A stretch of DNA of 64,000 nucleotides from positions 17,556 to 81,555 of the forward strand of contig QXWX01000018.1 in assembly GCA_009911175.1 (NCBI GenBank), written 5' to 3'. Both the position numbers and the translations under genes were made by a program. The stretch is from Lachnospiraceae bacterium. GTDB taxonomy: Bacteria > Bacillota_A > Clostridia > Lachnospirales > Lachnospiraceae. Below, piece by piece: positions 13,127-39,440 of the stretch. The notes under the pieces were generated by a model. The model worked only from the letters and a program-made list of their open reading frames with translations, made no database searches and was not told where the DNA came from. Position 1 is the stretch's first letter, and the number at the start of each line of letters is the position of its first letter.

Positions 13127-14272
13127 ATGAAAAGTTTTGATATAAAGACAAAGATATATTTTGGCGACCAGGCGCTGGACAGGCTCTCGGAAATTCCCTA
13201 CCAGCGGGTGCTGGTCATCACGGACCCGTTCATGGCTCAGAGCAGTATGATCAATCTGGTAACCGATCCTCTGAAAAAGGGCCGCAAGGAATTTGAGATT
13301 TTCCAGGATGTGGTTCCGGACCCGCCCATCGAAAAGATTTCCGAAGGCGTGAAAAAAATGCTGGAGTACAGGCCCGATGTGATTGTGGCGGTGGGCGGCG
13401 GCTCTGCCATTGACTCCTCCAAGTCTATCCGGGAATTTGCGCTGAGGGTTGACCGCTATGGGGAGGTTGGGCTGATCGCAATCCCAACGACCAGCGGGAC
13501 GGGCTCGGAAGTGACTTCCTTTGCGGTGGTTTCAGATCCGAAAGAACAGAGAAAGTATCCGCTGGTATCCCGGGATATGACGCCGGATGAGGCGATTCTG
13601 GACGCGGAGCTGGTGAAAAGCGTGCCGCCTGCGGTGACGGCAGATACGGGAATGGATGTATTTACCCATGCGCTGGAAGCCTGCGTGAGTACGAACCGGA
13701 ACGATTTTTCCACGGCTCTGGCGGAAAAATCCATCGAGATCTGCGGCGTGTTCCTGCTTCGGGCATACTTAGACGGCAGCGATACCCACGCCAGACAGAA
13801 GATGCACTCGGCTTCCTGCCTGGCAGGTCTGGCATTTAACTCCGCATCATTGGGGCTGAACCACGGGATGGCGCACCAACTGGGCGCAACCTTCCATATC
13901 CCCCACGGGCGGGCCAATGCCATGCTGCTTCCGCATATCATTGAGTTTAACAGTGATATCAATAAGCACAGCAAAAGTCAGACGGACTATCTGCCTGCGG
14001 TAAAGCGTTATTCCACCGTGGCGCAGATTCTGGGCCTGAGCAGCTATAATAAAATCATGACCGTGCGCTCCCTGGTGAACTGGGTGCAGTTCATGATGAA
14101 GGAAATGGATATCCCGCTGTCCATCTCCCAGATGGAGAAGATATCCAAAGAAGAATATTTTGCCGCCATCGACCGTATGGCAGATGCCGCGCTGGCTGAC
14201 GGCTGTACCGCCACCAACCCGCGGGTGCCGAGCAAGGCGGATATTATGAAAATTTATGAAGCATTGTGGTGA
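13127..14272 (+). CDS. pduQ: Iron-containing alcohol dehydrogenase (PduQ-like, 1-propanol dehydrogenase)
   Basis: A 381-aa group III alcohol dehydrogenase. NAD-binding GGGSAIDSSK stands near residue 88; iron-ligand histidines lie in the GLNHGMAHQLGATFHIPHGRAN region. It would reduce propanal to 1-propanol and so regenerate NAD+ for PduP. No clear encapsulation helix is present at the N-terminus, so it may bind through another partner (PduQ is thought to bind PduP) or be cytosolic. It is the last gene before two stem-loop terminators. Confidence 0.9.
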   Translation: MKSFDIKTKIYFGDQALDRLSEIPYQRVLVITDPFMAQSSMINLVTDPLKKGRKEFEIFQDVVPDPPIEKISEGVKKMLEYRPDVIVAVGGGSAIDSSKSIREFALRVDRYGEVGLIAIPTTSGTGSEVTSFAVVSDPKEQRKYPLVSRDMTPDEAILDAELVKSVPPAVTADTGMDVFTHALEACVSTNRNDFSTALAEKSIEICGVFLLRAYLDGSDTHARQKMHSASCLAGLAFNSASLGLNHGMAHQLGATFHIPHGRANAMLLPHIIEFNSDINKHSKSQTDYLPAVKRYSTVAQILGLSSYNKIMTVRSLVNWVQFMMKEMDIPLSISQMEKISKEEYFAAIDRMADAALADGCTATNPRVPSKADIMKIYEALW

Positions 14273-14541: not shown

Positions 14542-14916
14542 TTGAAAATATTAATCTCGAACACTTCTGACATCCCATTGTATCAACAGATCAAAGACCA
14601 GATTAAGGATGCTATCCTGAAAGAAGAGTTGGTTGAAAATGATCCGCTTCCCTCGATCCGTGCATTTGCCAATGATTTGAAAGTCAGTGTCCTGACGATA
14701 AGACGGGTCTATGAAGAACTGGAACAAGAAGGGTTTGTGATAAGCCAGGTTGGTATCGGGACCTTTGTATCTGCAAGTAATATTGAACTGCTCAGAGATT
14801 CCAGACGCCGCCTTGTAGAGCAGAAAATGCAGGACATGATACAGACCGCAAAAGCACTGGATATCACTAAGGAAGAACTGAATGCAATGATGGATATTCT
14901 TTATGAGGAGGTATGA
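14542..14916 (+). CDS. GntR-family regulator, YtrA subfamily
   Basis: A 124-aa short GntR protein: winged helix (IPLYQQIKDQIKDAILKEEL, LPSIRAFANDLKVSVLTIRR, GTFVS) plus a small C-terminal helix pair, the YtrA layout that accompanies ABC exporters. The start is a TTG at 14542 with GAGGAG 9-14 bases upstream. It overlaps no gene but ends 5 bp before the ABC ATPase start, so it represses its own exporter operon by family analogy. That operon is now broken by the mobile element. Confidence 0.88.
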   Translation: MKILISNTSDIPLYQQIKDQIKDAILKEELVENDPLPSIRAFANDLKVSVLTIRRVYEELEQEGFVISQVGIGTFVSASNIELLRDSRRRLVEQKMQDMIQTAKALDITKEELNAMMDILYEEV

Positions 14917-14920
14917 CTAC

Positions 14921-15415
14921 ATGGCATCAATTTTAGAGGTTTCCGGATTGAGAAAGAGTTACGGCAATTTTGAACTGAAAGATATCAGTTTTACGATTCA
15001 GGAGGACTGTATCACAGGCTTTATAGGCGCAAACGGCGCGGGAAAAAGCACAACCATTTATTCTCTGCTGAATCTGGTCCGCAGAGAGGCAGGAACGATC
15101 ACATTTCGCGGAAAAGATATTTCTGCAGACGAAAGACTGTTCAAGGATAAAATCGGTGTTGTTTTTGACAGCAGCAGCTTTTATGATGAACTGACGATTC
15201 AGGAGATGACCTCATTGATTGCGCCCTCATATTCTGAGTGGAATCAGCGTGCGTATCAAGAGTATTTAGATATGTTTTCTCTGCAGAAGGAACATATCAT
15301 AGGAATGCTGTCAAAAGGCATGAAAATGAAATACGCTCTTGCACTTGCTCTGTCGCACAACGCAGAGCTGCTGATTATGGATGTAAACTGGACTATGGTT
15401 TTTGACTGTATATAG
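14921..15415 (+). pseudogene. ABC transporter ATPase, 5' half (interrupted)
   Basis: This encodes the first 154 residues of an ATPase with Walker A IGANGAGKST, the signature region LSKGMKMKYALALALS and the start of Walker B (LLIMD). At 15383 the homology stops; ten foreign codons follow to a stop. The missing part (EPTSGLDP onward) is found at 32684-33066. Joining 14921-15383 to 32684-33066 gives 846 bp, exactly 282 codons, so the gene was intact before the insertion. A truncated ATPase lacking the Walker B glutamate would be inactive. Confidence 0.93.
15373..15383 (+). repeat. Left junction copy of the 11-bp direct repeat
   Basis: GATTATGGATG, part of the Walker B codons of the interrupted ATPase, repeated at 32673-32683. 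The base context here is GATGTA, which resembles the core hexanucleotide I recall for Tn554 attachment; that comparison is from memory. Confidence 0.85.
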
Positions 15416-15433
15416 CGTATATTGTGTTTAAAA

Positions 15434-15515
15434 TAATGGAATATAGCTACAGAATACACAAAGCATGGGGAAAAATGTGTATGAAGTAGAGGGAATGGCA
15501 GAGAGGAATAATGGT
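15434..15515 (+). repeat. Imperfect dispersed repeat, copy A
   Basis: This shares a 28-base exact block (GGGAAAAATG through AGTAGAGGGAA) plus flanking similarity (ATGGAATATAGCTAC and GGCAGAGAGGA) with 26660-26755, in the same orientation. The two copies bracket the cargo region of the element. Function unknown; it could be a relic of a shared insertion sequence end or promoter region. Confidence 0.7.
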
Positions 15516-17274: not shown

Positions 17275-17821
17275 GCTGTGAAATCGGCATAGCCGATTTT
17301 ACCTAGCGAACGGAGGTAACTCATTTCGCTTTGGTAGGCTGATAACATACAATAGGAAAATCCTATCAGGTAAAATCTAGTCGACTACCTATACCGAGTC
17401 TTTGGAGCCGAAGCAGTAATGTCAGGTTTAAGTGTAGGACAGGGAGCAACAGAACTGAGAAATGATTATGAGGTTGGAAATGGTCGATGTGCTTGTTTAT
17501 ACAGTAGACAATATCATTGTGAACGTTATGGTGAGGAAGTAATGTCCATTGTATACCATACATCTCATCAAGGAGATAGAAAAGAAAGAGGAAATCAGAT
17601 AGATAACAGGAAGTCCGAATGTCTATAGTATCAAAGAGATTACTAATCATAGGGGGAGAGAAGGGGTATACCTTATAGTGAAAGTGGATTCATTCAAATT
17701 GACAATGGAGAGTCAGGCACATTGGATGAATAAAACGGAAATATCATAGGATTAAGCCGTATGTGCTAATAGCGTATGTACGGTTTGAATAAAGGGTATG
17801 GGAAGTAATTACCATATTTAC
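17275..17821 (+). ncRNA. ORF-less group II intron (remnant or trans-dependent)
   Basis: Domain V is recognisable at 17755-17786: AGCCGTA pairs with TACGGTT, an upper stem TGTGC/GCGTA, and the conserved 2-nt TG bulge; the AGC triad is intact. It is followed by a domain VI-like stem (ATGG/CCAT around 17799-17814). Upstream DNA is rich in local stems (for example AAATCGGC/GCCGATTT at 17281-17299). No maturase/reverse transcriptase gene lies in the domain IV position, so it is either a deletion derivative or depends on a maturase elsewhere. The 5' end is uncertain; I do not see a clean GTGYG start. Confidence 0.68.
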
Positions 17822-17895
17822 TAAGGATAGATTTAGCATAATTTTAGAATGGATATGTATTGTGTTTTAGACTCGTTTAATAGAGGAGAAGATTT

Positions 17896-19014
17896 ATGGA
17901 AAAGAAATATCAAATATTTATTAGTTCTACATATAATGATTTGAAAGAAGAAAGACGAAAGGTTCAAGACACAATATTATCTATGTATCATTTTCCCATT
18001 GGGATGGAAATGTTCAGTGCGGGAGACGAGGAACAGTGGGAAATTATTCAAGATACAATTGACAGTTCTGATTATTATGTTTTAATTGTAGGTCATAAAT
18101 ATGGAAGTGTGATAGAAAGAGGGAAAGATAAGGGAATAAGTTACACGCAAAAGGAATTTCGATATGCTTTGAAGAAAGAGATTCCTATCTTAGCCTTTTT
18201 AATTGATAAAAATGCTAAGATTACTACAGATATGATAGAAAGAGATGCTATTAAAGAAAAAAAATTAGAAGAATTTAAAAAAGAAATTAAAAAGAATAGG
18301 ATGGTACAATGGTGGACAAATAAAGAAGATTTAGCCAATAAAGTTATGGTAGCTTTAAATAAACAAATGAATAGAATCCCAAGACCAGGATGGATAAGAT
18401 CAGATTCGATTACTAATGAGGAATTAGATAAAGCGGAAAGAATAGTAATGGATAGAACGAATAGTCCACAGTATAAAAGGGAGGATGCTGAAAAAAGTAA
18501 AAAGGAAAACGAAAAACTTTTTATGACATCAGACGATGGAATGGGAGAGATAGATTATTTTGAAAGATTCAATATACTAAAGAAAAAGATTAGTGAACAC
18601 CCTACAAATTTGGAAATGAATGATTTTATACTAAAGAGTTACGAGCAAATAGTGGAATGGCTTATTAATTTAGGGGAACAATATGAAAGAGAAAATGAGG
18701 ACATTATTCTGAGAATAAATAAAGTTAATTCAGTAATAGTTGTTTTTCATTTTTATAAAAACAAAAAATTAATAAGAGCATTAAAAGTGTTTTTGGAAAG
18801 TATGTTTGGAAAGAGTGAAAAAAGTATTTTGATTTCACAAAATGAAGTGGTTTCACCAGGAACCGCTTCTTATGATGGAGTATATGATGTGAAATTTGAT
18901 GAAGGAAAAATGAAGTTGTTTGCGACAGGTTCTATGTTGAACTCTAAGAAGTACGTGACAGCAGAAGAAGTAGTTGCAGATATATGGGAGAGTTATATAC
19001 AACCATATCTGTAA
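17896..19014 (+). CDS. DUF4062-domain protein, first gene of the cassette
   Basis: This 372-aa protein opens with a DUF4062 domain (residues 1-90: YQIFISSTYNDLKEERRKV, SDYYVLIVGHKYGSV, ISYTQKEFRYAL). That fold is related to TIR/nucleoside-deoxyribosyltransferase-like sensors and is common at the N-terminus of defence and NTPase proteins. The rest (residues 130-372) is charged and helical with no recognised domain; there is no P-loop. GAGGAG precedes the ATG. It heads a run of nine co-directional AT-rich genes. Its role could be sensor or effector for a molecule made by the downstream enzymes; this is inference. Confidence 0.82.
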   Translation: MEKKYQIFISSTYNDLKEERRKVQDTILSMYHFPIGMEMFSAGDEEQWEIIQDTIDSSDYYVLIVGHKYGSVIERGKDKGISYTQKEFRYALKKEIPILAFLIDKNAKITTDMIERDAIKEKKLEEFKKEIKKNRMVQWWTNKEDLANKVMVALNKQMNRIPRPGWIRSDSITNEELDKAERIVMDRTNSPQYKREDAEKSKKENEKLFMTSDDGMGEIDYFERFNILKKKISEHPTNLEMNDFILKSYEQIVEWLINLGEQYERENEDIILRINKVNSVIVVFHFYKNKKLIRALKVFLESMFGKSEKSILISQNEVVSPGTASYDGVYDVKFDEGKMKLFATGSMLNSKKYVTAEEVVADIWESYIQPYL

Positions 19015-19081
19015 GTATAAAATTTCCTTTTTAACAAATAGGACTATAGGTGAAAGAATAAATAATAAAGAGAGGATGTAA

Positions 19082-19600
19082 ATGCAGATACCAGATAATA
19101 ATTTGTTTTGTGTATATGGAGTAGGGGCAATCATTGAACGTATGATCGAAAGAAGAAGATTTGTGTTGATACAAAATAGAGTTAGGAAAGGAAAGCAGTC
19201 TGGTTTAATAGAAGTTCCATGTGGGAAAGTAAAAGCAACAGAAGATGCAGTTACCGTAATAAAACAAAGGGTCGTTGAGGAAACTGGATTGAGGATAACA
19301 AAAATAGCTGGTATGGAAGAAAGCATAGTCATGAAAAAGAGTATACAGAATTGCCGCCCATTTTATTCTTGCCAGAGCATAGAAAAGGACTTTCCTGTTG
19401 CGATAAATTTTTTTATTTGTTCTGTAGAGGGAAACCCTAAGACGTATACGGAGGCTGCAGATAATATAAGATGGACTTCGATAGATGAATTATCTGGGAT
19501 GTTAATGAATGAAGAGGAAAAATTTTTACCAGTGGTGGTTGGAGCACTTAAAGAATATGTAAAGAATATAGAAGAGGAGAAAAAGATATGGAATTTATGA
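19082..19600 (+). CDS. Nudix-domain protein with altered Nudix box
   Basis: A 172-aa Nudix-fold protein. The box reads GKVKATE-DAVTVIK-QRVVEETGL. The GX5E spacing and the metal-binding EE pair are present, but the usual REU is QRV, so one glutamate and the arginine of the signature are changed. It may hydrolyse poorly, or bind a nucleotide-linked ligand rather than cut it. Several cysteines near the middle (NCRPFYSCQS) are unusual. Its end overlaps the HIT gene by 13 bp, so the two are translationally coupled. Confidence 0.8.
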   Translation: MQIPDNNLFCVYGVGAIIERMIERRRFVLIQNRVRKGKQSGLIEVPCGKVKATEDAVTVIKQRVVEETGLRITKIAGMEESIVMKKSIQNCRPFYSCQSIEKDFPVAINFFICSVEGNPKTYTEAADNIRWTSIDELSGMLMNEEEKFLPVVVGALKEYVKNIEEEKKIWNL

Positions 19601-20001
19601 GCAAATTTAAACCAACAGAAAATAAAGTTAAAGAGTTTGAAAATTGGATTATAGTTATACGCGAAAAACAGGTGACATTAGGGGCGTGCGTTATACTTCT
19701 TAAACGTCAGATAAGTTCTTTGAGTGAAATGACAGAGGAAGAAGTGAAAGAGTTTCCCAGAGTAATAAAATGGTATGAGGAAAAATGTCAAAATTGTTTT
19801 GGTGCAGAAAAATTTAATTATGTTGTTGCAATGATGAAGGATAGATTTGTTCATTATCATGCTTTTCCCAGGTATTCTTTTGCTGTTAATAAATATAATA
19901 AGGAATGGATAGATCAAGATTGGCCTAAAGTTATTAATTTTAGAAATATGGATATTGATAAAGAAATTCTTAAGAGGATTATAAAGGATATGAAGGAATA
20001 A
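19588..20001 (+). CDS. HIT-family protein
   Basis: A 137-aa protein of the histidine-triad superfamily. The motif reads FVHYHAFPRYS, which aligns to HVHFHVIPR of diadenosine tetraphosphate hydrolase/Hint-like proteins. The central nucleophilic His and the third His are kept while the first is Phe. Family members cut nucleoside phosphoramidates or transfer/hydrolyse nucleotidyl groups. Being coupled to a Nudix protein suggests shared handling of a nucleotide-linked intermediate or product (inference). GAGGAG before the ATG; the next gene starts 1 bp after its stop. Confidence 0.77.
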   Translation: MEFMSKFKPTENKVKEFENWIIVIREKQVTLGACVILLKRQISSLSEMTEEEVKEFPRVIKWYEEKCQNCFGAEKFNYVVAMMKDRFVHYHAFPRYSFAVNKYNKEWIDQDWPKVINFRNMDIDKEILKRIIKDMKE

Positions 20002-20002
20002 G

Positions 20003-21226
20003 ATGTTGACAGGAAATATTATCTTTAACGGGAATGCTGAAAATGCATTATTATTAGAATATGAAATTAATCAGGAAGAGTTATTTCAAAAGGGCTGTTT
20101 GATATATTCAGAGCAATTAACAAATGAAGTGGCACTTTTAGCAATAAAAGTACATGCGGTAGGACTTTTAACATGCAACTCTTCATTTGCTACTCATGGT
20201 GCCAATATATTGCGGTCATATTTTAATCGGAATTATTGTCAGTTCCTTTGGATAACTAATATAAAGAGAACTGAACTTGAGGGATACATTGGAAAAAGAA
20301 TCAGTATCATTAATGGAAAATTATCTTTTCCAATGAATGAACGAAACGATAGTTTTGTTCGCGATATAGTACTCAATCCGATAAAAAATAGAACAAAAAT
20401 AAAATATTATATCTCTAAAGGGAAAATGGATGTATGTTATTGGCCGCATCGAAAGTATGATATTTTTACATTTTCTATTATGAAAAAAGGGTTGAAAAAA
20501 AACTATGAGTGGTTATTCGCTAAGAAAACTGATGTTATATTAGATGGAGAGGGCCGCATTTGGTTTTCAGATGGTATTCCACTTCGTAGCATAATTGATT
20601 TGGCAAGGAATTATGAGACCAGTGAGTTGTATCTAGAAAAACAAGTGGAGGTATATCACAAAATAATTTTGAATATTTCATCCCAAATGATATTTTCAAA
20701 GTGTGTTGAATTATTGATTGAATATTTCACGGTATTTATTTTGTATCATAATACATATGAGTATGTTTTACTTGATATATATTATTGTGCTGAAAGTGCA
20801 TATGGAGCAGAATTTGCTAATGAATGTATAAACGTATTCTTATTTTGCTGCATAGACGAATGGATGTTAATGCATTCATTGACATTGGAAAAGCACAAAA
20901 GTCTTTATGCTAGTGAACCATTAACTCCAGTTCCTAATTTCTCAATTTATGATGATATTAAGAAGAAGGAAAAAGACATTTATAATTATTTTGAGAAATC
21001 TGGGAAGTTAGTTTTTTATGAGCAAAATAGGAAAAAAATTCAGTATTGGATAAAAGTATTTGTTGTAAAGGAGTGGAAGTTTGTAATCAACAAAATTTTA
21101 TTTACAAGATGCGGAAAGAAGATACGGGAATTTTGTGCAAATCAAAAGTTATCGTTAATACAAATACAAAAAATGATGATTGATAGAGTATTGAAGATAA
21201 TGGGGGATTTAAATGAATATATTTAA
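20003..21226 (+). CDS. PEP-synthase-type phosphohistidine swivel protein fused to unknown domain
   Basis: A 407-aa protein. Residues 1-110 resemble the mobile swivelling domain of PEP-utilising enzymes: TGNIIFNGNAENALLLE, then AVGLLTCNSSFATHGANILRS, which aligns with the TxxGGxxSHxAIxAR phosphohistidine site; the phospho-acceptor would be the His in FATHGA. Residues 120-407 are an unrecognised, mostly helical region with many Tyr and Cys. In rifampin phosphotransferase and PEP synthase this His carries phosphate from the ATP-grasp domain to the substrate. The partner ATP-grasp is the next gene, which overlaps by 14 bp. The long C-terminal part may be the acceptor-binding domain. Confidence 0.72.
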   Translation: MLTGNIIFNGNAENALLLEYEINQEELFQKGCLIYSEQLTNEVALLAIKVHAVGLLTCNSSFATHGANILRSYFNRNYCQFLWITNIKRTELEGYIGKRISIINGKLSFPMNERNDSFVRDIVLNPIKNRTKIKYYISKGKMDVCYWPHRKYDIFTFSIMKKGLKKNYEWLFAKKTDVILDGEGRIWFSDGIPLRSIIDLARNYETSELYLEKQVEVYHKIILNISSQMIFSKCVELLIEYFTVFILYHNTYEYVLLDIYYCAESAYGAEFANECINVFLFCCIDEWMLMHSLTLEKHKSLYASEPLTPVPNFSIYDDIKKKEKDIYNYFEKSGKLVFYEQNRKKIQYWIKVFVVKEWKFVINKILFTRCGKKIREFCANQKLSLIQIQKMMIDRVLKIMGDLNEYI

Positions 21227-22001
21227 TATTACAGTATTAGATAGTAGTAACATTACAGAAAATTGTGGGACAAAAGCTCTTATGCTTGCAGAATTGGCAA
21301 AAATGGGGATACAGGTTCCTGTGTTTTACGGGATTGGGGTAGACGATTTTATACGATTTTGCAAAAGGTTCAATAATACATCTTTTTTGAATCAGGATGT
21401 AGAACTGCTTTTGTCAGAGAGGCTGCCAGAAGATAAATATATGGTCAGATCTTCTGTCGTACCCAAAAACAAAGAAAATCTAGATTTTGGATCTATGATA
21501 TCAGGTGCATTTGAAAGCTTTAGTGCAAATAATTATGACGAGGTTTTGCAAAGAGTTTTGGAAGTTTGGCGTTCTTTCTTTTCAGAGAAAGCAAAGGAAC
21601 AATGTGCTTTGTTTTTAGAGGATGGCTCTATATTAGGAATGGGAGTACTGATACAGAAGTATATTGAACCAGTGATTTCTGGTGTTTTACATTCAGATAA
21701 AGGTAAATATAATATTAGTTGGATAAAAGGACATTTGTCTAAGATTGTATCAGGTTTAACTCGAGGAAATGCAATCACATGTTATCAAAATGAGGAAAAT
21801 GAAACCATTTTGCGTGGGGTGGAGGAAAATATATTAAAAATTATAGATTATGGATATGAGTCAGTATTTACTGAGTTAGAAGGATTGGGAAGGAAAATTA
21901 ATCAAAAACTAGGTTATGAAATAGAAATGGAATGGATTTATGATGGAAAATATATATGGGTTGTTCAATGTCAAAAATTGATAGAAGAGGGTATATCATG
22001 A
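21213..22001 (+). CDS. PEP/pyruvate-synthase-type ATP-grasp domain protein
   Basis: A 262-aa stand-alone ATP-binding domain of the PPDK/PEP synthase N-terminal family: GTKALMLAELAKMGIQVP, YMVRSSVVPKN, the SGAFESF segment, VWRSFFSEKA, LIQKYIEPVISGVL and a closing WVVQCQ. In full-length relatives this domain splits ATP to AMP and phosphate and phosphorylates the swivel histidine. Here it is separated from the swivel protein encoded just upstream, and no PEP-binding TIM barrel is present, so the acceptor is probably not pyruvate. ATGA overlap with the next gene. Confidence 0.8.
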   Translation: MNIFNITVLDSSNITENCGTKALMLAELAKMGIQVPVFYGIGVDDFIRFCKRFNNTSFLNQDVELLLSERLPEDKYMVRSSVVPKNKENLDFGSMISGAFESFSANNYDEVLQRVLEVWRSFFSEKAKEQCALFLEDGSILGMGVLIQKYIEPVISGVLHSDKGKYNISWIKGHLSKIVSGLTRGNAITCYQNEENETILRGVEENILKIIDYGYESVFTELEGLGRKINQKLGYEIEMEWIYDGKYIWVVQCQKLIEEGIS

Positions 22002-23152
22002 TAGGAATAATGTTTGTTGGACTTTTGGGTGATAATGCTACAACAGTTATTGTAGGTAGCATGGCAATGAAATATGGATATATTCCATTAAAATATGGTA
22101 TTACTGACTATGGTAAACTCTTTGGTAAAGATTTTACAGATGTACATGATATGGTTTTTTCTGGTTGGGACTATCAGGATAAAAGTGTATTTGAATGTGC
22201 AATGAACAAAGGGATTATTTCTACTGAAATAATAAGTCTCGTACCAGAGTTAAATAAGATTATGCCATACAAAGGTATTCATACAGATATGGATATTCCT
22301 TTGGAGGACAATTTTAATCATTATTATAACCCTCAAACGGTAACTCAAGCAATACAATTTATAAAAAAAGATATTTTGGATTTTAAATCAAAGAACCATT
22401 TAAACAATGTAATTGTTTTCTATATGGGTTCTCCAGCCAAAGTAATAGAGTCAAATATTCTCAAGCTATCTTATGATAATATTATGCAGTTAGAAGTAAA
22501 ACAATTGCCTAGTTCATTGCTATATGCGATAGCAGCTATTGAATCTAATGCGCATTTTGTAGATTTTACTCCAAGCGAAACACTAGAGTTTTGTTTTATA
22601 AATGATTTGGCAAGAAAGTACGGTGTGCAAGTTTCAGGAAGAGATGGAAGTACTGGACAGACAATGTTAAAATTAGTAATTGCTGATATGTTACGAATTC
22701 GTAATTTACATCTAGATGCATGGTATAGTACTAATATTATCGGAAATCATGACGGCTATATATTGTCAATGCCGGAGTATTGCGTTACAAAGATTCAAGA
22801 TAAGACAAATGGAATTAAAAACTTATTAGGATATGATGATTTTGAACATAAAGTGTCGATTGAATATTTTAAATATAAAGGAGATAAAAAAGAATCATGG
22901 GATGCTGTGTATTTTAGTGGATGGCTTAATGAGCCAATGTCGCTAAAATTAAATTGGCAGGGAGAAGATTCCATACTTGCAGCACCGATTATTCTTGATA
23001 TTATTCGTTTGATAGTGTTGGGTAGTGAATATGGATTATGTGGTATCCAAAAACAGTTAGGACTTTTTTATAAACATCCGTTTTTATGTGAAGGAATGTC
23101 ATTTACACAATTATATGAGCAACTAATTAATTTTTATGCAGGATTATCATAA
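21998..23152 (+). CDS. myo-Inositol-1-phosphate synthase homologue
   Basis: A 384-aa protein of the Ino1 family. It has an N-terminal NAD-binding loop (GLLGDNATTVIVG) and a conserved core: VDFTPSETLEF, GRDGSTGQTMLK, WYSTNIIGNHDGYILS, KYKGDKKESWD and DSILAAPIILDIIRL. The family converts glucose-6-phosphate to inositol-3-phosphate through NAD-linked oxidation, aldol cyclisation and reduction. GRDGSTGQT is the variant loop seen in actinobacterial secondary-metabolism homologues, as I recall. ATG at 21998 is chosen because AGAGG precedes it and it overlaps the upstream stop by 4 bp. An inositol phosphate or relative may be the scaffold phosphorylated by the two preceding proteins. Confidence 0.85.
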   Translation: MIGIMFVGLLGDNATTVIVGSMAMKYGYIPLKYGITDYGKLFGKDFTDVHDMVFSGWDYQDKSVFECAMNKGIISTEIISLVPELNKIMPYKGIHTDMDIPLEDNFNHYYNPQTVTQAIQFIKKDILDFKSKNHLNNVIVFYMGSPAKVIESNILKLSYDNIMQLEVKQLPSSLLYAIAAIESNAHFVDFTPSETLEFCFINDLARKYGVQVSGRDGSTGQTMLKLVIADMLRIRNLHLDAWYSTNIIGNHDGYILSMPEYCVTKIQDKTNGIKNLLGYDDFEHKVSIEYFKYKGDKKESWDAVYFSGWLNEPMSLKLNWQGEDSILAAPIILDIIRLIVLGSEYGLCGIQKQLGLFYKHPFLCEGMSFTQLYEQLINFYAGLS

Positions 23153-23165
23153 AATAAGGTGAAGT

Positions 23166-24239
23166 ATGCGAACGATAATAAAAGATGCGTTATATTATAG
23201 ATGCGATTGTAAAGAATTAAGAAGTGTTAAATTAAATAAGACAGAATATACATTTTCTGAGTCTGTTTCCAATGATCTCATTAAGACATTGCAAACAAAT
23301 GATTTCAAAGCTGTTTTTATTGGGAGATTAAACATTTTCTCCCATTCGATGAATGTATTACGAAAAGCGGTAGATGGGAAAGATATAATAATTATTATTG
23401 GGGTAAGTAAGATTTTAAACAAATTAAAAGTAAGTAAAGAATGTACTTTAGATTTGAAAAAAAACAAAATTATTATAGAAGATACGGAATACATTTTTTT
23501 AAACTTTGATTATGGCTCAGATACAGATGAGGAAATTGAATACAATATTGTTTCTAAATATATCTGCTATAAACCTGATTATTATTATAGTAAAGAGCTG
23601 GCAGAAATAATAAGAAAAGGATTTGAACAGTCCAAAGTAAAAACTCAGGAACATCTAATTTCTGTTATATCGGAGAAAAATAGGATTTGGAATTATGGAA
23701 TCGGATTTCCAAAAGAGATATATTTGAATCTAACTTCGAATCAAAAATATTTTTATATGTCCCTTTTAGAATACATTGATATACTACAAGACATTATGGG
23801 ATTTTGTAGTACAAAGCAAAAAGATGAAAAATTGGTTGAGTTATTAATTAAGCATTTTTCATATTCCACAATATTTTCTTTTTGCTTAACAAATGCTAGC
23901 TTGAGTTTGTATCATGAATTAAAAGATAATCAACTGTTTGAAAAATGTTATCAAGTTTTTACATTAATTTCACCTATTACAGATAAAGAGGACTTAACTG
24001 TTAAAGAAATCCAGAGAATGAGGATATGTCTTCAGTATTTGCTTTCTGATAAAGAAGATAAATTTATAATTACTTATCCAGAATTTGAAGGTATACAAAT
24101 AACAACGAAAGTCATTATTTTCTTTGTTATGCATTTATTTTCAGATATTCGTAGGTGTGTCATTGGAAAGCTAGTTGAGGGAAATAATTGGTTTGCATCT
24201 TTATGTACTCACAAGAAGAGGAATAATGAGGTATACTAG
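23166..24239 (+). CDS. Unknown protein of the cassette (357 aa)
   Basis: I do not recognise this family. The N-terminal 120 residues alternate hydrophobic strands and turns (KAVFIGRLNIFSHSMNVLRK, DGKDIIIIIGVSKIL) and look alpha/beta. Residues 180-357 are helical with several Cys and aromatic residues. There is no signal peptide and no clear membrane span. It lies 13 bp after the inositol synthase gene and abuts the next gene directly, so it belongs to the same transcription unit. A catalytic or binding role cannot be assigned. Confidence 0.75.
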   Translation: MRTIIKDALYYRCDCKELRSVKLNKTEYTFSESVSNDLIKTLQTNDFKAVFIGRLNIFSHSMNVLRKAVDGKDIIIIIGVSKILNKLKVSKECTLDLKKNKIIIEDTEYIFLNFDYGSDTDEEIEYNIVSKYICYKPDYYYSKELAEIIRKGFEQSKVKTQEHLISVISEKNRIWNYGIGFPKEIYLNLTSNQKYFYMSLLEYIDILQDIMGFCSTKQKDEKLVELLIKHFSYSTIFSFCLTNASLSLYHELKDNQLFEKCYQVFTLISPITDKEDLTVKEIQRMRICLQYLLSDKEDKFIITYPEFEGIQITTKVIIFFVMHLFSDIRRCVIGKLVEGNNWFASLCTHKKRNNEVY

Positions 24240-24980
24240 ATGTCTGAAAAAGCAAAACATAAGAAGAAGAGAAAGAAGTTAGAAGCAAAAGAAAATACAA
24301 TAGATGGTTTCAATTTTACTAAGGTCAATATAAGGCTTTCTATGTCACCAAAAGATTATAAGGAACTTATTCTTAAAATGGAAAATAATTCTAAAGAAAT
24401 ATTGTTATTGTCAAAAAGGATGACGGTAATGTTCAAATCTGAATTAATGATTCAAGAAATGGCAAAAAAGCGTTTCGGTGAAGGAAGTCCACATATTGAA
24501 GCATATATTGATGAACATACTCTTAGGAAAGCCTCTTTTTTTTCTGCGTTGGAAAGTGGATGTAAAATTTATGAGATACATAACAAAGCGGAATTAGAAA
24601 AATACCTAAAAGAAAGATCTCATGTTGGTATTGGTCAAGTGGGTTATGAACATATTATACAAATGGTTAAAAATTGGAAAAAGACAATGCATGACTACCC
24701 AAAACAATATTTTGTAGCGTTAACAGAAGAGTCTATCCCTTTTAAATATGAGTTAGTTAACAGGGAATGGATGGTGATTCATGAATCTGTAGGAGCGCAG
24801 AGTGACCAGAGAATGAATGCATTGTTTATTAATTCAAAAGAAATTGTAAAAGATGTGCGTAAAGATTTTTTCTCTATTTGGGAGAGAACAAACAATGTAG
24901 ACAAAGATAAATCCAATATAGATACGTGGCTTGATAAAATAATTAAAGTTATTAAAGGTGAAAATGAGATAAATGAATAG
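24240..24980 (+). CDS. Unknown protein of the cassette (246 aa)
   Basis: The N-terminus is strongly basic (SEKAKHKKKRKKLEAKEN). The C-terminal half, with VALTEESIPFKYELVN, WMVIHESVG and NALFINSKEIVKDVRKDF, recalls the phospholipase-D-like sensor domain attached to some XRE regulators, but no catalytic HKD motif is visible; this is a weak resemblance. The start codon follows directly on the previous stop. It could be a nucleic-acid-binding regulator or effector of the cassette. Confidence 0.7.
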   Translation: MSEKAKHKKKRKKLEAKENTIDGFNFTKVNIRLSMSPKDYKELILKMENNSKEILLLSKRMTVMFKSELMIQEMAKKRFGEGSPHIEAYIDEHTLRKASFFSALESGCKIYEIHNKAELEKYLKERSHVGIGQVGYEHIIQMVKNWKKTMHDYPKQYFVALTEESIPFKYELVNREWMVIHESVGAQSDQRMNALFINSKEIVKDVRKDFFSIWERTNNVDKDKSNIDTWLDKIIKVIKGENEINE

Positions 24981-24991
24981 GATTAGAAAAT

Positions 24992-25765
24992 ATGAAAAAC
25001 AAAGTGAAAAGGAATGAGAATATTGTAGAGCATTTCACCAAAAGGTCAATGCAGTATGACAATATATCTTTGTGGGTTACAAATGAAACAATATTAAAAA
25101 GAATGTTGGATTTTTTGCCGGAAGATGATAAAAAATATAAAATATTAGATCTAGGGGCTGGGACAGGTGCGGTATCTAAATACATTTTAAATAATTATAA
25201 AAAAGATGTAGAAATAACAGCTGTAGATAATTGCTTATCCATGCTAGAAAAGATTGATGAACAGCAAATTCAAATTGTCGAGAGTGATGTAGCTAGAATG
25301 CCGTTCCCAGATCATAGTTTTGATGTTGTGATTTCTAGACAATGCCTGCATTACGTAGAAAATTTGGATGAAGCAATGTCAGAAGTTCGAAGAGTAATGA
25401 AAAAGGATGGAGTGTTTATTTTAGGGCAAATTGTACCCTATGATTCTGTTACTGCTCAATATTGGAATGAGATCACGCAAATACGACAACCTTTTCGAAA
25501 GTGGTATTTTACAGCAGAGCAGTGGAACCAAAAACTTGCACAAAATAATTTCAAAATATTAAATAAAAGTATATGTGTACATCAAGGATCCGTTAATATG
25601 TGGATAAAAAAATATAATATAACGGAGTATAGTTTAATAGAAAAATATAAACGTTTGCTTTTGGAGGCAGACTACCACTATAAACAAATATATTCAGTTC
25701 AGGAGAATGAGGATGATGTAACTTATAATGCTTATTGGCATATTGTGAAGAGTATTGCCTTTTGA
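24992..25765 (+). CDS. SAM-dependent methyltransferase (class I)
   Basis: A 257-aa methyltransferase-11-type protein. Motif I is ILDLGAGTGAVSKYI (residues 49-63), motif II acidic residue in ITAVDNCLSML, and motif IV region FDVVISRQCLHYV. Close in layout to small-molecule methyltransferases (ubiquinone/tetrapyrrole type), not rRNA or DNA types. It is the last gene of the nine-gene run, so it may methylate the product. It is preceded by a weak ribosome site (GGATTAG). Confidence 0.85.
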   Translation: MKNKVKRNENIVEHFTKRSMQYDNISLWVTNETILKRMLDFLPEDDKKYKILDLGAGTGAVSKYILNNYKKDVEITAVDNCLSMLEKIDEQQIQIVESDVARMPFPDHSFDVVISRQCLHYVENLDEAMSEVRRVMKKDGVFILGQIVPYDSVTAQYWNEITQIRQPFRKWYFTAEQWNQKLAQNNFKILNKSICVHQGSVNMWIKKYNITEYSLIEKYKRLLLEADYHYKQIYSVQENEDDVTYNAYWHIVKSIAF

Positions 25766-26604: not shown

Positions 26605-26939
26605 AGTAAAAGTAATGTAGTGGCTTCTTCTGTCAAAGAGGAGGCTATTTATATTTAGTAGTGGAATAGGGCTACTTAATATACAGGGCATAGGGAAAAA
26701 TGTGTATGAAGTAGAGGGAAAAAATGTAATGACTGGCAGGGAGGAGTGATGTCTCCAGAAGCCGGTTTTTTGTTGGGAATAAATCAGAGGATAGGTAGGA
26801 ATGCACAGTTTTAAACACAGATTATTGGTACATTTTGTGGATTGCTTTCCAGCAGGAAAGTGGTATCGTATGATGCTTAATGTAGGATGCATTAAAAAAA
26901 GAATAATACATATATAAAGATTCAGGCAGTGGAAGGGAT
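26605..26939. other. Gene-free stretch with dispersed repeats
   Basis: This holds copy B of the repeat shared with 15434-15515, and a 26808-26890 segment resembling 28227-28305 (TGCACAGTTT, GTGGATNGCTTTCCA and GGTATC blocks in the same order). Probably relics of the same family of mobile DNA. No supportable gene. Confidence 0.4.
26660..26755 (+). repeat. Imperfect dispersed repeat, copy B
   Basis: Same-orientation partner of 15434-15515: a 28-base exact core and similar flanks, with a 13-base insertion after the core. Confidence 0.7.
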
Positions 26940-29430: not shown

Positions 29431-29552
29431 TTATCCACACTGCCGCAGATTTTCAGGAGCGTGATCCACAAACAGGCGCCTGGCGGAGGGTTTTTGTGGA
29501 TCACAGTTCCGGAAACCGGTGGATAACTCTGTATTTTTAGAAGTTATCCACA
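29431..29552. promoter_or_regulatory. Cluster of DnaA-box-like sequences in IS66
   Basis: TTATCCACA occurs exactly at 29431-29439 and 29544-29552. TGATCCACA (29462-29470) and TGTGGATCA (29495-29503) lie in a perfect 12-bp inverted repeat around the palindrome CAGGCGCCTG. GTGGATAACT (29519-29528) is inverted to AGTTATCCAC (29542-29551). The five boxes lie within 122 bp of the tnpB-tnpC gap. Confidence 0.5.
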
Positions 29553-29656
29553 CATCAGGAGTTCGTCAAAATGCCGATGGATGTATCCGGGGCAGTTTGC
29601 AGACCGCCATAGTTTCCACTATAATAAAGGGACAAGAAAAGAAGGAGGAACATCCT

Positions 29657-30265
29657 ATGGTGGAGCATACGGAAGATTTGATCAGGCTCTTATATAAAAC
29701 AATTGAACAAAAAGACGACCAGATCCAGAAACTCCCGGTCAGAGAGATCCGCTGTCCGATACCGGAAGGGGAGAGGCCGTGTCCGGATTGTGGCACTCCG
29801 ATGGAGACGATCACCTGGCAGTTTGTGCGGGAAGAGCTTCGGATCACTCCCGCAAAGGTAGAACGGATCCGCTACATGCAGGAGGTCCTTGCATGCCCGG
29901 TCTGCCGTGAGGAGGATACCGGCACGATCGTCAAGGCGCCGGTACCCACCGCCCTGCTGGCACACAGTCCGGCTTCGCCGTCTATGGCTGCCTTCGTCAT
30001 GTATCAGAAGTTCCTGAATTCGGTTCCTTTCTACCGCCAGGAAATGGACTGGCTCCAAATGGGAACCCCGCTGGCCAGGGAAACCACCTCAAACTGGTGT
30101 ATCAAATGCGCGCTGGCCTATTTCGAACCTGTTTATGACCGGCTTCATGAATATCTTGTAAAACGCGGGATCCTCCATGCGGATGAGACGGTCTGCCAGG
30201 TTCTCCACGAAACAGGGAAAACAGCATCTTCAAACTCTTATATGTGTTATGTGCTGAGTTTTTGA
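29657..30265 (+). pseudogene. tnpC: IS66 transposase TnpC, truncated and internally deleted
   Basis: The ATG at 29657 follows GAAGGAGG. The protein shows the IS66 leader (RLLYKTIEQKDDQIQKL), a zinc-finger-like CPDCGTPMETI, and the core ARETTSNWCIKCA and LHADETVCQVLHE with the first catalytic acid. It ends at residue 202 in a foreign tail after SNSYM, far short of the usual 500 residues, and the stretch after IQKL seems shortened. The truncation point near 30240 marks later DNA rearrangement next to the recombinase module. Confidence 0.85.
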
Positions 30266-30606: not shown

Positions 30607-32104
30607 AGTTTCCATTTGTGAGATGGAATGCTTTCGGAAAGCTCCGCAGGCTCAGAAAGACAGGGTAACCGCGAACCTGATTTTCGATATGGAAAAACTT
30701 CCGACAGAAGAGATGAGAACAGAGTTCCGTCAATTCTTAATGGAAAGAGAAAAAAATATATCTGTTGCAACAATGATGAAGGAACGGATATATTACAATA
30801 TGATATGCCGGTTTTTGAAGGATGGGGGAAGCCGGATCAAAAGTTTTCAGGACAAGACTTTAGAGGAATGGCTGAGAAAACTGAACGTATGGCTTATGCA
30901 GCAGGGGCTGTCACGGACTGAACGGGGAATCAGCGTGTATGGGAAAGAAGACATCAAGCCATCAAGAGTGATCACATATTTCCGAAAAATACATTTTTTT
31001 ACGCAAGCGAAAGATACGAGGAGGGAAACAGCGAAAGATATATGGGATTTAAGAAAAATAGATGTCCCATATAAGGAAAATATAATTAAGAATTTTGAGA
31101 CGTTGAATTTTAAAAATATCATACAGCCTGATATAAGGGAGGAAACAAAAAAAGCGGTGCTGCGGCATTTACAATATGAAGCGCTGGCTACGATTTCTAA
31201 GGAGTTGACTGCTATACGCCGGATGTCAAAATACTTGGATAAACATTATCCGAAAGTGAAATCCTGCATGGATATCAACAGAAAAATTCTTGAAGTATAT
31301 CTGATCTATCTCCAGGTAGAGGATACCGGGGTGAACAATTTCAGAAGTGACTTGACGAGGTTAAGAGCGCTGCTGGAAACCATTGGGAAAATTTATGGAG
31401 CCAGCCATCTGGAAAACCTGTTTTTAAATACAGATATTCCGCATCCGGTTAGGACAGAATTAAAATCCTATAGTGATGAGGAGTTGAAAAGATTTAATGC
31501 CGCATTTGTAAAAATGGAGGAACAGATGTGTCGGCTCATGGTCATCCACCAAATGCTTGGGACAAGGATATCCGATACCCTGACGCTGCAGACAGATTGC
31601 CTGTATGAGCTGGAAGGGCGGCCAATGATACGCATCCATCAAATGAAAACAGACACATTTGTCAAAAATATTAGCGCAGAACTGGAAATTCTGATCCAGA
31701 AAGCAATCCAGTATACGAAAAAGAAATATGGGGAAACGAAGTTTATCTTTGTAGATGAAAAGAATCCGGAGAGACCTCTGCAATACAGTACGGTGCAAAG
31801 TCGTGTGATGATAATGGTACAAAAAGAAGATTTGCGGGATGATAAGGGGCAGTTATTCGGATTTGGCACTCATATGTTCCGTCACTGCTATGGAATCCTT
31901 CTGACAGAGATGCATTATGACGATTGGACCATCGCAAAGCTGCTCGGACACCGGAGTATAAAAAATGTGAAGTATTACAGGAAAATGAGCCTACAGATTC
32001 TGGCGGATGAGACGAGGGAAGTCCGGGAACGGAAGAGTAAACTGATAGAAAAATATTTAGACGGATGGGGCGAAGAATATGAACAAGTACGACAACATGA
32101 TTGA
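30596..32104 (+). CDS. Tyrosine recombinase (Tn554 TnpB-like)
   Basis: A 502-aa site-specific recombinase. The catalytic set is visible: Arg324 in LGTRISD, His426/Arg429 in HMFRHCYG, His452 in LGHRS and Tyr461 in KYYRKM. The 300-residue N-terminal part is a long helical DNA-binding region as in Tn554-type enzymes. Overlaps the downstream small gene by 26 bp. It is intact and could act on the element's ends, but Tn554 needs two recombinases and the upstream one is a relic. Confidence 0.88.
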   Translation: MENKVSICEMECFRKAPQAQKDRVTANLIFDMEKLPTEEMRTEFRQFLMEREKNISVATMMKERIYYNMICRFLKDGGSRIKSFQDKTLEEWLRKLNVWLMQQGLSRTERGISVYGKEDIKPSRVITYFRKIHFFTQAKDTRRETAKDIWDLRKIDVPYKENIIKNFETLNFKNIIQPDIREETKKAVLRHLQYEALATISKELTAIRRMSKYLDKHYPKVKSCMDINRKILEVYLIYLQVEDTGVNNFRSDLTRLRALLETIGKIYGASHLENLFLNTDIPHPVRTELKSYSDEELKRFNAAFVKMEEQMCRLMVIHQMLGTRISDTLTLQTDCLYELEGRPMIRIHQMKTDTFVKNISAELEILIQKAIQYTKKKYGETKFIFVDEKNPERPLQYSTVQSRVMIMVQKEDLRDDKGQLFGFGTHMFRHCYGILLTEMHYDDWTIAKLLGHRSIKNVKYYRKMSLQILADETREVRERKSKLIEKYLDGWGEEYEQVRQHD

Positions 32105-32459
32105 AAAGAACCGGAAAGTCAGTGAGGAAAAAATAGCGAGGGCAAAAAGCGCAATCCGGGAAATGATTGAGGAAGAAGAGAAGGTTACAATCCCAAAGCT
32201 GATGAAGAAAACGGGGCTGTCGAGGGGATTTTTTTATAAGAATCCGATAGTACGCAAAGAGATCGACCGGGCACTGGATCTCCAGGCAGGGATGGTGGAC
32301 AGCAAGCGGAAGGTTCTGGATATGGTGATGGAGAACCGAATCGAACTGCTGGAGCAGACGATCACAAAACTGAAGAAAGAAAACGCAGAATTGAAGCAGC
32401 AGAATGAAAAGCAGCAGAAGTTGCTGAACAAGAAGAATCTGAGTATATTGAAGTCATAA
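32079..32459 (+). CDS. TnpC/DUF6262-like small transposon protein
   Basis: A 126-aa protein. N-terminal helices (EEKIARAKSAIREMIEEEE), a helix-turn-helix (VTIPKLMKKTGLSRGFFYKN), and a C-terminal coiled coil (LEQTITKLKKENAELKQQNE). This is the layout of the accessory protein encoded after the recombinases in Tn554-family elements, where TnpC influences insertion efficiency and orientation. It is the last gene before the right junction. Confidence 0.82.
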   Translation: MNKYDNMIEKNRKVSEEKIARAKSAIREMIEEEEKVTIPKLMKKTGLSRGFFYKNPIVRKEIDRALDLQAGMVDSKRKVLDMVMENRIELLEQTITKLKKENAELKQQNEKQQKLLNKKNLSILKS

Positions 32460-32519: not shown

Positions 32520-32672
32520 GTTGAAGATATAGAGATAGGAAGTGAGGCGTTATCCAGAGGGATGGCGCCTGCTTTTTGGGGAGTTAGAGGGATTTTGGGA
32601 AAGGATACACATTACACAAATGTGTATGCCGCTAAATTCAGTGTTTTCAAGGCATGAGGGAGATGGGGTACA

Positions 32673-32683
32673 GATTATGGATG
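32673..32683 (+). repeat. Right junction copy of the 11-bp direct repeat
   Basis: GATTATGGATG, followed by AGCCGAC, which continues the ATPase codons for EPT. Partner of 15373-15383. Confidence 0.85.
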
Positions 32684-33066
32684 AGCCGACAAGCGGACTC
32701 GATCCCTTTATGCGGAAGCAGTTTATCCGCATTTTGAAAACATATATGGAGGCGGGAAGCAGGGCTGTCTTTTATTCCACGCACAACACGACAGATTTAG
32801 ATCAATCCGCGGATATGCTGATCATGATACATGCAGGAACTATTTTATTTGAAGAGAACAAAGATGCGCTGCTGGAGAAATTCAGAATCGTTAAAGGCGA
32901 TGTAAAACTGCTGCCGGGTATACAGCCCTTCATGCTGAGTTTTGACAAAAGTAATTATGGTTTTACCGGCATTACGGACAAAGCTGAAAAAATCAAAGCA
33001 GCATATCCGGAGGTTCTGATCGAAAGAGCTGCAATAGAGGATATTATGCTTGCATATATAAAGTAG
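32684..33066 (+). pseudogene. ABC transporter ATPase, 3' half (interrupted)
   Basis: EPTSGLDPFMRKQFI (Walker B glutamate and D-loop), STHNTTDLDQ (switch histidine) and a 100-residue C-terminal domain ending IEDIMLAYIK. It fuses in frame and without gap or overlap to 14921-15383 once the element is removed, giving a 281-aa YtrB-like ATPase. An open frame from 32542 runs into it through element DNA but has no start worth trusting. Confidence 0.92.
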
Positions 33067-39158: not shown

Positions 39159-39440
39159 GTGGCGGCAGAATATGTATGGGAGACGCCGGAAGAGATGGAT
39201 CTGCTCCTGGCGCAGAGAATACGAAGGATTCGGAAGCGTCGTTTAGTTTCACAGGAAAAGCTAAGCCAGATGAGCGGAGTCAGTTTTGGATCAATCAAGC
39301 GTTTTGAAACGACAGGAAAGATTTCCCTGCTTTCCCTGACAAAGCTTGCGGTTGCACTCGACTGCGGGGACGAGATCCGAAATATGTTTACACAGATTCC
39401 ATATCGGAATATAGAGGAGGTTATTCGTGAAGGCAGATAG
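39159..39440 (+). CDS. hipB: HipB-like antitoxin, XRE family
   Basis: A 93-aa XRE helix-turn-helix protein (QRIRRIRKRRLVSQEKLSQMSGVSFGSIKRFE, LTKLAVALDC). The GTG start at 39159 is backed by AAGGAGAGG eight bases upstream. It overlaps hipA by 14 bp, the usual antitoxin-first order. Confidence 0.88.
   Translation: MAAEYVWETPEEMDLLLAQRIRRIRKRRLVSQEKLSQMSGVSFGSIKRFETTGKISLLSLTKLAVALDCGDEIRNMFTQIPYRNIEEVIREGR

Follow-up and report, generated by a model that had tools for sequence, protein, structure and literature searches.

A cassette of nine genes (g1 to g9) was identified in a 64,000-nucleotide stretch of DNA from a Lachnospiraceae bacterium (positions 17,556 to 81,555 of contig QXWX01000018.1; hereafter the window), and we consider, with slightly less than even confidence, that it may be a system for intracellular signalling or defence that spreads horizontally. 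Homologous genes kept together in other mobile elements provide good evidence for a putative conserved core of g3, g4, g6 and g8, encoding a HIT-family protein, a phosphohistidine swivel protein, a myo-inositol-1-phosphate synthase (MIPS) and a protein of predicted PLD fold, and moderate evidence that g5, encoding an ATP-grasp protein, also belongs to it. The product of the cassette, the way it may be sensed, its trigger and a possible antiphage role are all deduced from the families of the encoded proteins.

Gene organization and conserved core of the cassette

The sequence-only reading of the window had described nine co-directional, AT-rich and closely packed genes. This was confirmed by nine open reading frames (ORFs) on the + strand at 17896-25765, with coordinates as earlier assigned (Table 1), a widest gap of 67 bp (between g1 and g2) and a GC content of 27–33%, compared with 50–56% over the window's initial 14 kb. 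The remaining junctions are overlaps of 13 bp (g2–g3), 14 bp (g4–g5) and 4 bp (g5–g6, with the g6 start taken at 21998) or gaps of 1 bp (g3–g4), 13 bp (g6–g7), 0 bp (g7–g8) and 11 bp (g8–g9). An operon scan gave no excess of promoter-like matches (57, vs 55.1 in shuffled sequences) and a single terminator-like site, located within g5. Pfam searches with the nine proteins found DUF4062, Nudix, PPDK_N, both MIPS domains and a methyltransferase above cut-off, as the sequence-only reading had listed them; the HIT assignment fell under the cut-off of 21.5 bits in the window (18.3 bits) and above it in the orthologue on an Arthrobacter plasmid (24.0 bits), and the swivel domain, which had also been named, has no Pfam match and rests on a predicted fold and an invariant histidine. 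No curated NCBIfam cut-off was reached by the nine proteins among the matches listed, and PADLOC-DB returned eight matches at E<=1, with nothing for g4, g5, g6 or g8.

The core was recovered in two actinobacterial mobile elements. On plasmid pZXY24 of Arthrobacter sp. ZXY-2 (locus L008), six genes lie within 5.2 kb in the order g8, HIT, a 214–224-aa ORF, MIPS, a MobA-like nucleotidyltransferase gene on the opposite strand and the swivel protein, the last being found at 7.6e-33 by a profile built without the L008 sequence. Orthologues of these six genes are present in identical order in one of 394 genomes sampled around the actinobacterium Micromonospora (locus L095), on a contig that also encodes a large serine recombinase and a TraD/VirD4-like protein and so resembles a conjugative element. 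With the window proteins alone as queries, g3 (1.6e-27 in L008, 1.1e-30 in L095), g4, g6 and g8 matched in both loci. The short ORF between the HIT and MIPS genes matched between L008 and L095 at 1.2e-24; its likeness to g5 consists of its position and the motifs GxK, RS or RP, SGAxxS and QxQ, and profile comparison of the two gave an E-value of 0.08 over 26 residues. No counterpart of g1, g2, g7 or g9 was found in either actinobacterial cassette, and a Nudix gene on pZXY24 was not a relative of g2 by the searches made. The objection that no second genome keeps these genes together therefore fails for the core, which with an equivalent of g5 is co-located in a second and a third genome; the full set of nine was found in no second genome.

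A linkage test compared the length of each protein's longest carrying contig between independent lists (52 swivel, 13 g8 and 113 of the 119 listed MIPS proteins). Identical lengths were obtained 15 times for swivel and MIPS, seven times for swivel and g8, four times for g8 and MIPS and four times for all three; when lengths were shifted by 1–100 bases either way as a null, the pairwise means were 0.3, 0.02 and 0.04 (maxima 3, 1 and 1), respectively. These coincidences are indirect evidence that swivel, MIPS and g8 relatives are linked on further contigs.

The surroundings of the actinobacterial copies are suggestive of defence-type neighbours, an observation that does not amount to an enrichment test. 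On pZXY24, an NYN-nuclease gene lies head-to-head with g8, and ~4 kb before it is an AAA gene with IetA matches, the AAA match being generic. Past the swivel gene are a Nudix gene (~3.6 kb) and a DarT-like gene (1.6e-5; ~4.2 kb), with sulfation and kinase genes between the cassette and this pair; at L008 16578-17814, near the inositol cassette, the Nudix gene immediately precedes that of the DarT-like ADP-ribosyltransferase. The cassette contig of genome G854 contains DNA methylases, two GHKL ATPases and a calcineurin-like phosphoesterase that matched a defence-candidate model, ~4 to 19 kb away.

Elsewhere the cassette was extremely rare. True swivel relatives were found in 0/397, 0/391, 1/394, 1/3 (the same genome), 0/259 and 0/251 genomes of samples that partly overlap, so that the counts are not independent; the scan recovered pZXY24 as a positive control. 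Seven weak swivel matches in the sample of 397 lay in ORFs of 538–584 aa, which we take to be Enzyme I of the phosphotransferase system. In species genomes, the swivel alignment found nothing, and the best 80 of 586 loci found with the MIPS alignment were general MIPS genes with no other cassette parts beside them. Viral contigs yielded no relatives by swivel alignment, g8 alignment or MIPS pattern and a phage collection no relatives of g4; viral carriage was rejected, the cassette not being phage-borne in the collections scanned. The cassette had been called undescribed, and in the open-access literature (which leaves out subscription journals and most preprints) none of the papers listed, judged by titles and the opening lines of abstracts, describes the gene set or links MIPS, a pathway to inositol or a dikinase to phage defence.

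Predicted functions of the encoded proteins

Searches among ~5.8 billion proteins identified 52 relatives of g4 (including the window's own entry), which belongs to no Pfam family. Alignment of 49 sequences showed 20 invariant positions, including His65 in SSFATHGANILR. In the predicted structure, residues 1–110 adopt a phosphohistidine-swivel fold with the invariant histidine and residues 111–407 are mainly helical; the rows of the structure comparison (VIA-align) cover mainly residues 1–123. A likeness of the C-terminal part to choline kinases was rejected, with probabilities under 0.1. A divergent paralogue of g4 is encoded by g7 (hmmsearch 1.8e-9 in the set of nine; hhalign probability 94%, E 1e-7, 242 columns). 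Profile matches of g5, which is likely to be the partner of g4, were led by phosphoenolpyruvate (PEP) synthase and included the prodigiosin ligase PigC and rifamycin phosphotransferase. Enzymes of the dikinase family carry the motif LQxRP, at which position g5 reads VQCQK and a Deinococcus protein LQCRP. The cassette resembles rifampin phosphotransferase, PEP synthase and PPDK in combining an ATP-grasp domain (g5) with a swivel-fold domain carrying an invariant histidine (g4), and differs from them in splitting these modules over two proteins and in its second swivel-type protein, g7. It differs further in the helical domain of g4 at the place of the C-terminal PEP/pyruvate barrel of PEP synthase and PPDK, for which no Pfam domain was found in the nine proteins. 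A three-part set of a 346-aa protein, a 66-aa swivel protein and an ATP-grasp protein was observed on a Deinococcus radiodurans plasmid (L009, 10744-12807), in a cluster with radical SAM enzymes, a carbamoyltransferase, a P450 and an MFS transporter.

The g6 protein contains both domains of Ino1-type MIPS (NAD_binding_5, 2.7e-36; Inos-1-P_synth, 5.1e-27), and the best PDB match of its profile was the MIPS structure 7nwr (7e-89). A MIPS search gave 351 proteins, of which 120 were listed. Lysines K265, K269, K298 and K359, which were read against the catalytic lysines of 1u1i through the alignment with that structure, were present in 46/46 rows. The g6 sequence reads GRDGSTGQT where locus L010 has GKDGKTGQT, and unlike Ino1 it sits in a mobile cassette. 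Loss of a catalytic lysine in GRDGSTGQT, which had been suspected, was discarded: the counterparts of the catalytic lysines in the alignment are at other positions and show no variation. The lysine network of MIPS is described as catalytic (PMC11348189). Identity as an Ari2-type five-membered cyclitol synthase is disfavoured because the profile scored 6k96 at 6.5e-20, compared with the value above for 7nwr.

The only part of the conserved core without an enzyme motif is g8. Its predicted structure has a PLD fold, which also matches PLD-type phosphatidylserine synthases, and a search gave 13 proteins; matches to DUF7436 were weak and were not used. Unlike PLD nucleases, g8 lacks the HxK(x4)D motif. 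The 14 rows share no invariant HxK: after H181 comes E182 in 14/14 and then S183 in 13/14, and D189 is present in only 7/14. Six basic residues (K59, R60, K66, R78, R96 and R191) are invariant in all 14 rows. The N-termini vary, with three predicted membrane helices in 8 of the 13 proteins and a soluble extension or none in the others; the window's g8 has no predicted membrane helix. TrmB-type sensor proteins have a winged helix as N-terminal part, and g8 differs from their sensor domains in carrying membrane helices or other extensions at that place. Because of its invariant basic residues, PLD fold without the HKD motif and varying N-termini, g8 as modelled has the look of an effector-coupled receptor that binds an anionic ligand.

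The g3 protein and its L008 and L095 orthologues share the motif xHxHxxPRY, in which two of the three histidines of the HIT motif, a histidine triad, are kept. PADLOC matched g2 to the candidate Nudix model PDC-S07 (3e-9) and g9 to the mad2 model (4e-16). The DUF4062 domain of g1 (Pfam, 9.3e-30) had been read as a TIR-like domain of immune proteins, which agrees with a 2026 report that places it in a TIR-like family of NADases active in phage defence and describes Swarozyc, an antiphage system consisting of a portal-activated DUF4062 defence protein (PMC13174449). Residues 2–176 of g1 align with KpSwz (PDB 10wc) at 1.2e-38. Gln85 aligns with residue 82 of the KpSwz chain, which, for a construct beginning with residue 16, we take to be the catalytic glutamate E97, and Glu87 of g1 lies two residues on. 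In 200 genomes of one bacterial family, eight relatives of DUF4062 type were found, with glutamate at the catalytic position in 6/8 and glutamine in 2/8; the remaining two of ten matches were TIR-type proteins sharing only the C-terminal domain of g1. NADase activity of g1 is uncertain from its sequence, and with glutamine at the position of the catalytic glutamate it was therefore filed as a Swarozyc relative and not as a proven NADase. Its residues 232–370 matched the PADLOC ThsB1 model at 3e-4, and two TIR-type proteins (L105 and L106) were observed to have a C-terminal domain in common with g1. The sharing suggests that this may be a sensor or oligomerization domain swapped between TIR and DUF4062 proteins.

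Carrier element and flanking genes

The proposal that the cassette is transposon cargo was borne out by an ABC-ATPase gene split by a 17.3-kb insert with GATTATGGATG at both ends and a tyrosine recombinase at the right end (Table 1). The gene is cut in its Walker B region, the left part ending ..LLIMD and the remainder (..DEPTSGLDP..) resuming after the insert, and the 11-bp repeat occurs only twice on the + strand of the window, at 15373 and 32673. Adjacent to the two gene parts (14903-15415 and 32542-33066) are a gene for an ABC-2 membrane protein and an ORF that looks GntR-like on inspection by eye. Besides the cassette, the ~17.3-kb insert holds an IS982-type ORF, a LytTR gene, a group II intron, a GNAT-like gene, an IS66 transposase and the recombinase. 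From its matches, the intron apparently contains no ORF and immediately precedes the cassette.

The initial ~117 bp of the element (15380-15496) are also present in two genomes that share a genus (G001, 91%; G1176, 95%), where relatives of the recombinase are 80% and 76% identical, respectively. In G1176 (C264), ORFs of 371, 591 and 502 aa lie in a row that we take to be a Tn554-like trio, of which only the 502-aa ORF was matched to the recombinase. The window element may itself be of Tn554 type: where such elements have three recombinase genes and a site-specific junction, it keeps one 502-aa recombinase and a ~126-aa ORF beside an IS66 element, with 11-bp end repeats. No near match of the whole-element DNA was found among plasmids. 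A 62-bp direct repeat (85% identical) was noted at the left end of the element (15434-15495) and just past the cassette region (26659-26720), perhaps because two elements have been combined. A relative of the 1-propanol dehydrogenase PduQ is encoded shortly before the split ABC gene (13127-14272), which suggests a propanediol-utilization or microcompartment locus adjoining the insert. Its closest plasmid records (47–52% identical) are from Clostridioides, Listeria and Enterococcus and point to a host among the Bacillota; matches of the recombinase, taken as a clue to the host, were distant and mixed. A HipA-like kinase gene is located at 39427-40581 (HipA_C, 1.8e-50).

Table 1 Positions in the window of the cassette genes and of features of the carrier element
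Feature	Position	Strand	Description
g1	17896..19014	+	DUF4062 TIR-like, Swarozyc family; C-terminal domain as in TIR-type proteins; outside conserved core
g2	19082..19600	+	Nudix hydrolase, Pfam 2.4e-9; outside conserved core
g3	19588..20001	+	HIT-family protein; core gene
g4	20003..21226	+	Predicted phosphohistidine swivel domain (1–110) and helical domain (111–407); core gene
g5	21213..22001	+	Stand-alone PPDK_N / PEP-synthase-type ATP-grasp, Pfam 2.7e-12; likely g4 partner
g6	21998..23152	+	Myo-inositol-1-phosphate synthase, GRDGSTGQT subfamily; core gene; longest ORF from 21956
g7	23166..24239	+	Divergent g4 paralogue, His kept in alignment
g8	24240..24980	+	Core gene; predicted PLD fold, HKD motif absent; candidate sensor/effector
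g9	24992..25765	+	S-adenosylmethionine (SAM) methyltransferase, small-molecule type, Pfam Methyltransf_11 1.2e-22; outside conserved core
Left junction	15373..15383	.	GATTATGGATG direct repeat inside ABC-ATPase Walker B region
Group II intron domains D1-D4	17357..17558	+	RF02005 64.2 bits, cut-off 49
Weak domain-5-like match	17752-17822		RF00029 24.7 bits, below cut-off 40; ~190 bp past D1-D4 match
IS66-type transposase ORF	29519..30265	+	DDE_Tnp_IS66 4e-22; right part of element
Tyrosine recombinase, 502 aa	30596..32104	+	Pfam Phage_integrase 6e-15
Small ORF, ~126 aa	~32079-32458		After tyrosine recombinase
Right junction	32673..32683	.	Second GATTATGGATG copy, then remaining ABC-ATPase gene

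Proposed mechanism and alternative explanations

The suggestion that the enzymes fit synthesis of a phosphorylated inositol-type compound was supported. By family, MIPS, the dikinase halves and the HIT protein may together lead to an inositol compound that is phosphorylated and possibly linked to a nucleotide. In such a pathway, g6 would convert glucose-6-phosphate to inositol phosphate; the split dikinase would add a further phosphate, with the ATP-grasp protein g5 charging the phosphohistidine of g4 and the acceptor sitting in the helical domain of g4; and g3, together with the MobA-like nucleotidyltransferase in actinobacteria, might add, remove or exchange a nucleotide. The product would be bound by g8, the variable N-terminus of which would execute or relay the effect. 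The extras of the window copy (the DUF4062 protein, Nudix, the second swivel protein g7 and the methyltransferase) would probably serve as a killer module and for signal tuning. The sequence-only reading had offered sensing of the signal by the DUF4062 protein as one of two options, the other being a secreted metabolite. As g1, like g2, g7 and g9, has no counterpart in either actinobacterial cassette, DUF4062 is unlikely to be a universal sensor, and g8 is the better candidate.

CBASS and Thoeris are messenger-based immune systems, and the logic proposed here is like theirs, in that enzymes would make a small molecule to which a sensor with swappable domains responds; the C-terminus of g1 also resembles the ThsB1 model of Thoeris. 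It differs from both in that no CD-NTase, and no TIR cyclase with ThsA, was matched by PADLOC among the nine proteins, apart from the partial ThsB1 match to g1, and in that the messenger would come from MIPS and a dikinase. From Swarozyc, which it resembles over the region of g1 aligned with KpSwz, the cassette differs in that g1 precedes eight other genes, has the extra C-terminal domain shared with TIR-type proteins and has glutamine for the catalytic glutamate.

Three features favour defence over metabolism: the vehicles, which are a transposon, a plasmid and an element of conjugative type; the extreme scarcity of the cassette among species genomes; and the Swarozyc relative in the window copy. 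It nevertheless has to be weighed whether the genes form a cluster for the biosynthesis of a metabolite that is secreted or stored, in which the MIPS product would be phosphorylated or activated by the dikinase and finished by the methyltransferase, with the DUF4062 protein an unrelated neighbour; we regard this as unlikely. PigC/RedH and rifampin phosphotransferase phosphorylate or activate their substrates, and PigC and rifamycin phosphotransferase are among the profile matches of g5, in keeping with a biosynthetic role. The split ATP-grasp/swivel pair of the Deinococcus radiodurans plasmid sits in a P450/radical SAM/MFS-transporter cluster, natural-product enzymes of MIPS type exist (the five-membered-cyclitol-phosphate synthase 6k96 being one), g9 looks like a small-molecule methyltransferase and sulfation genes adjoin the pZXY24 copy. 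No transporter or carrier-protein family was matched by Pfam among the cassette genes of the window or L008, however, and the six genes of L095 are orthologues of those of L008; g8, the most conserved part without an enzyme motif, has sensor/effector-like varying N-termini, and the three readable copies are all carried by mobile elements, with neighbours of defence type beside two of them.

It is quite unlikely, in our judgement, that two unrelated units are juxtaposed, a Swarozyc-type defence gene g1 (perhaps with the Nudix gene g2) beside an inositol-phosphate cassette g3–g9 for the carbon or phosphate metabolism of the host. Such a division would account for g1 and g2 being unmatched in L008 and L095 and for DUF4062 relatives occurring in 8/200 genomes of the family vs a true swivel relative in 0/397, and promoter-like matches are present in the g1–g2 gap, though not above chance. 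The two genes are nevertheless only 67 bp apart on one strand with no terminator-like site between them, and rarity and mobile carriage would be unusual for housekeeping metabolism. Modification of the envelope or membrane lipids, with g8 as a membrane-anchored PLD-fold transferase that places inositol phosphate on lipid and so alters phage receptors or the envelope, appears very unlikely: the fold match to phosphatidylserine synthases and the predicted helices in 8 of 13 g8 proteins are in keeping with it, whereas the absence of the HKD motif and of any predicted membrane helix in the window's g8 are not.

Within the signalling or defence reading, a more specific proposal is that the cassette represents a new class of bacterial immunity or of signalling from the cell to itself. 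MIPS and a split phosphohistidine dikinase would make the second messenger, an inositol (pyro)phosphate or inositol-nucleotide, when needed; it would be received by a degenerate PLD-fold protein with interchangeable membrane or soluble effector parts, and the system would be able to recruit an NAD-consuming TIR-like killer. This remains doubtful as a whole. To our knowledge, the messenger-based immune systems described in bacteria use nucleotides; the logic of a messenger system is already known, and the inositol-based chemistry itself would be new, if confirmed. Should the cassette turn out to be biosynthetic, the MIPS subfamily and the split dikinase, whose acceptor domain is uncharacterized, would still be enzymes open to assay of which no description was found. 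If the proposal is true, the cassette would stand beside CBASS and Thoeris as their inositol-phosphate equivalent, with transposons, plasmids and conjugative elements as its means of spread. Prokaryotes would then have a signal chemistry of another kind, which might be an ancient parallel to inositol-phosphate signalling in eukaryotes.

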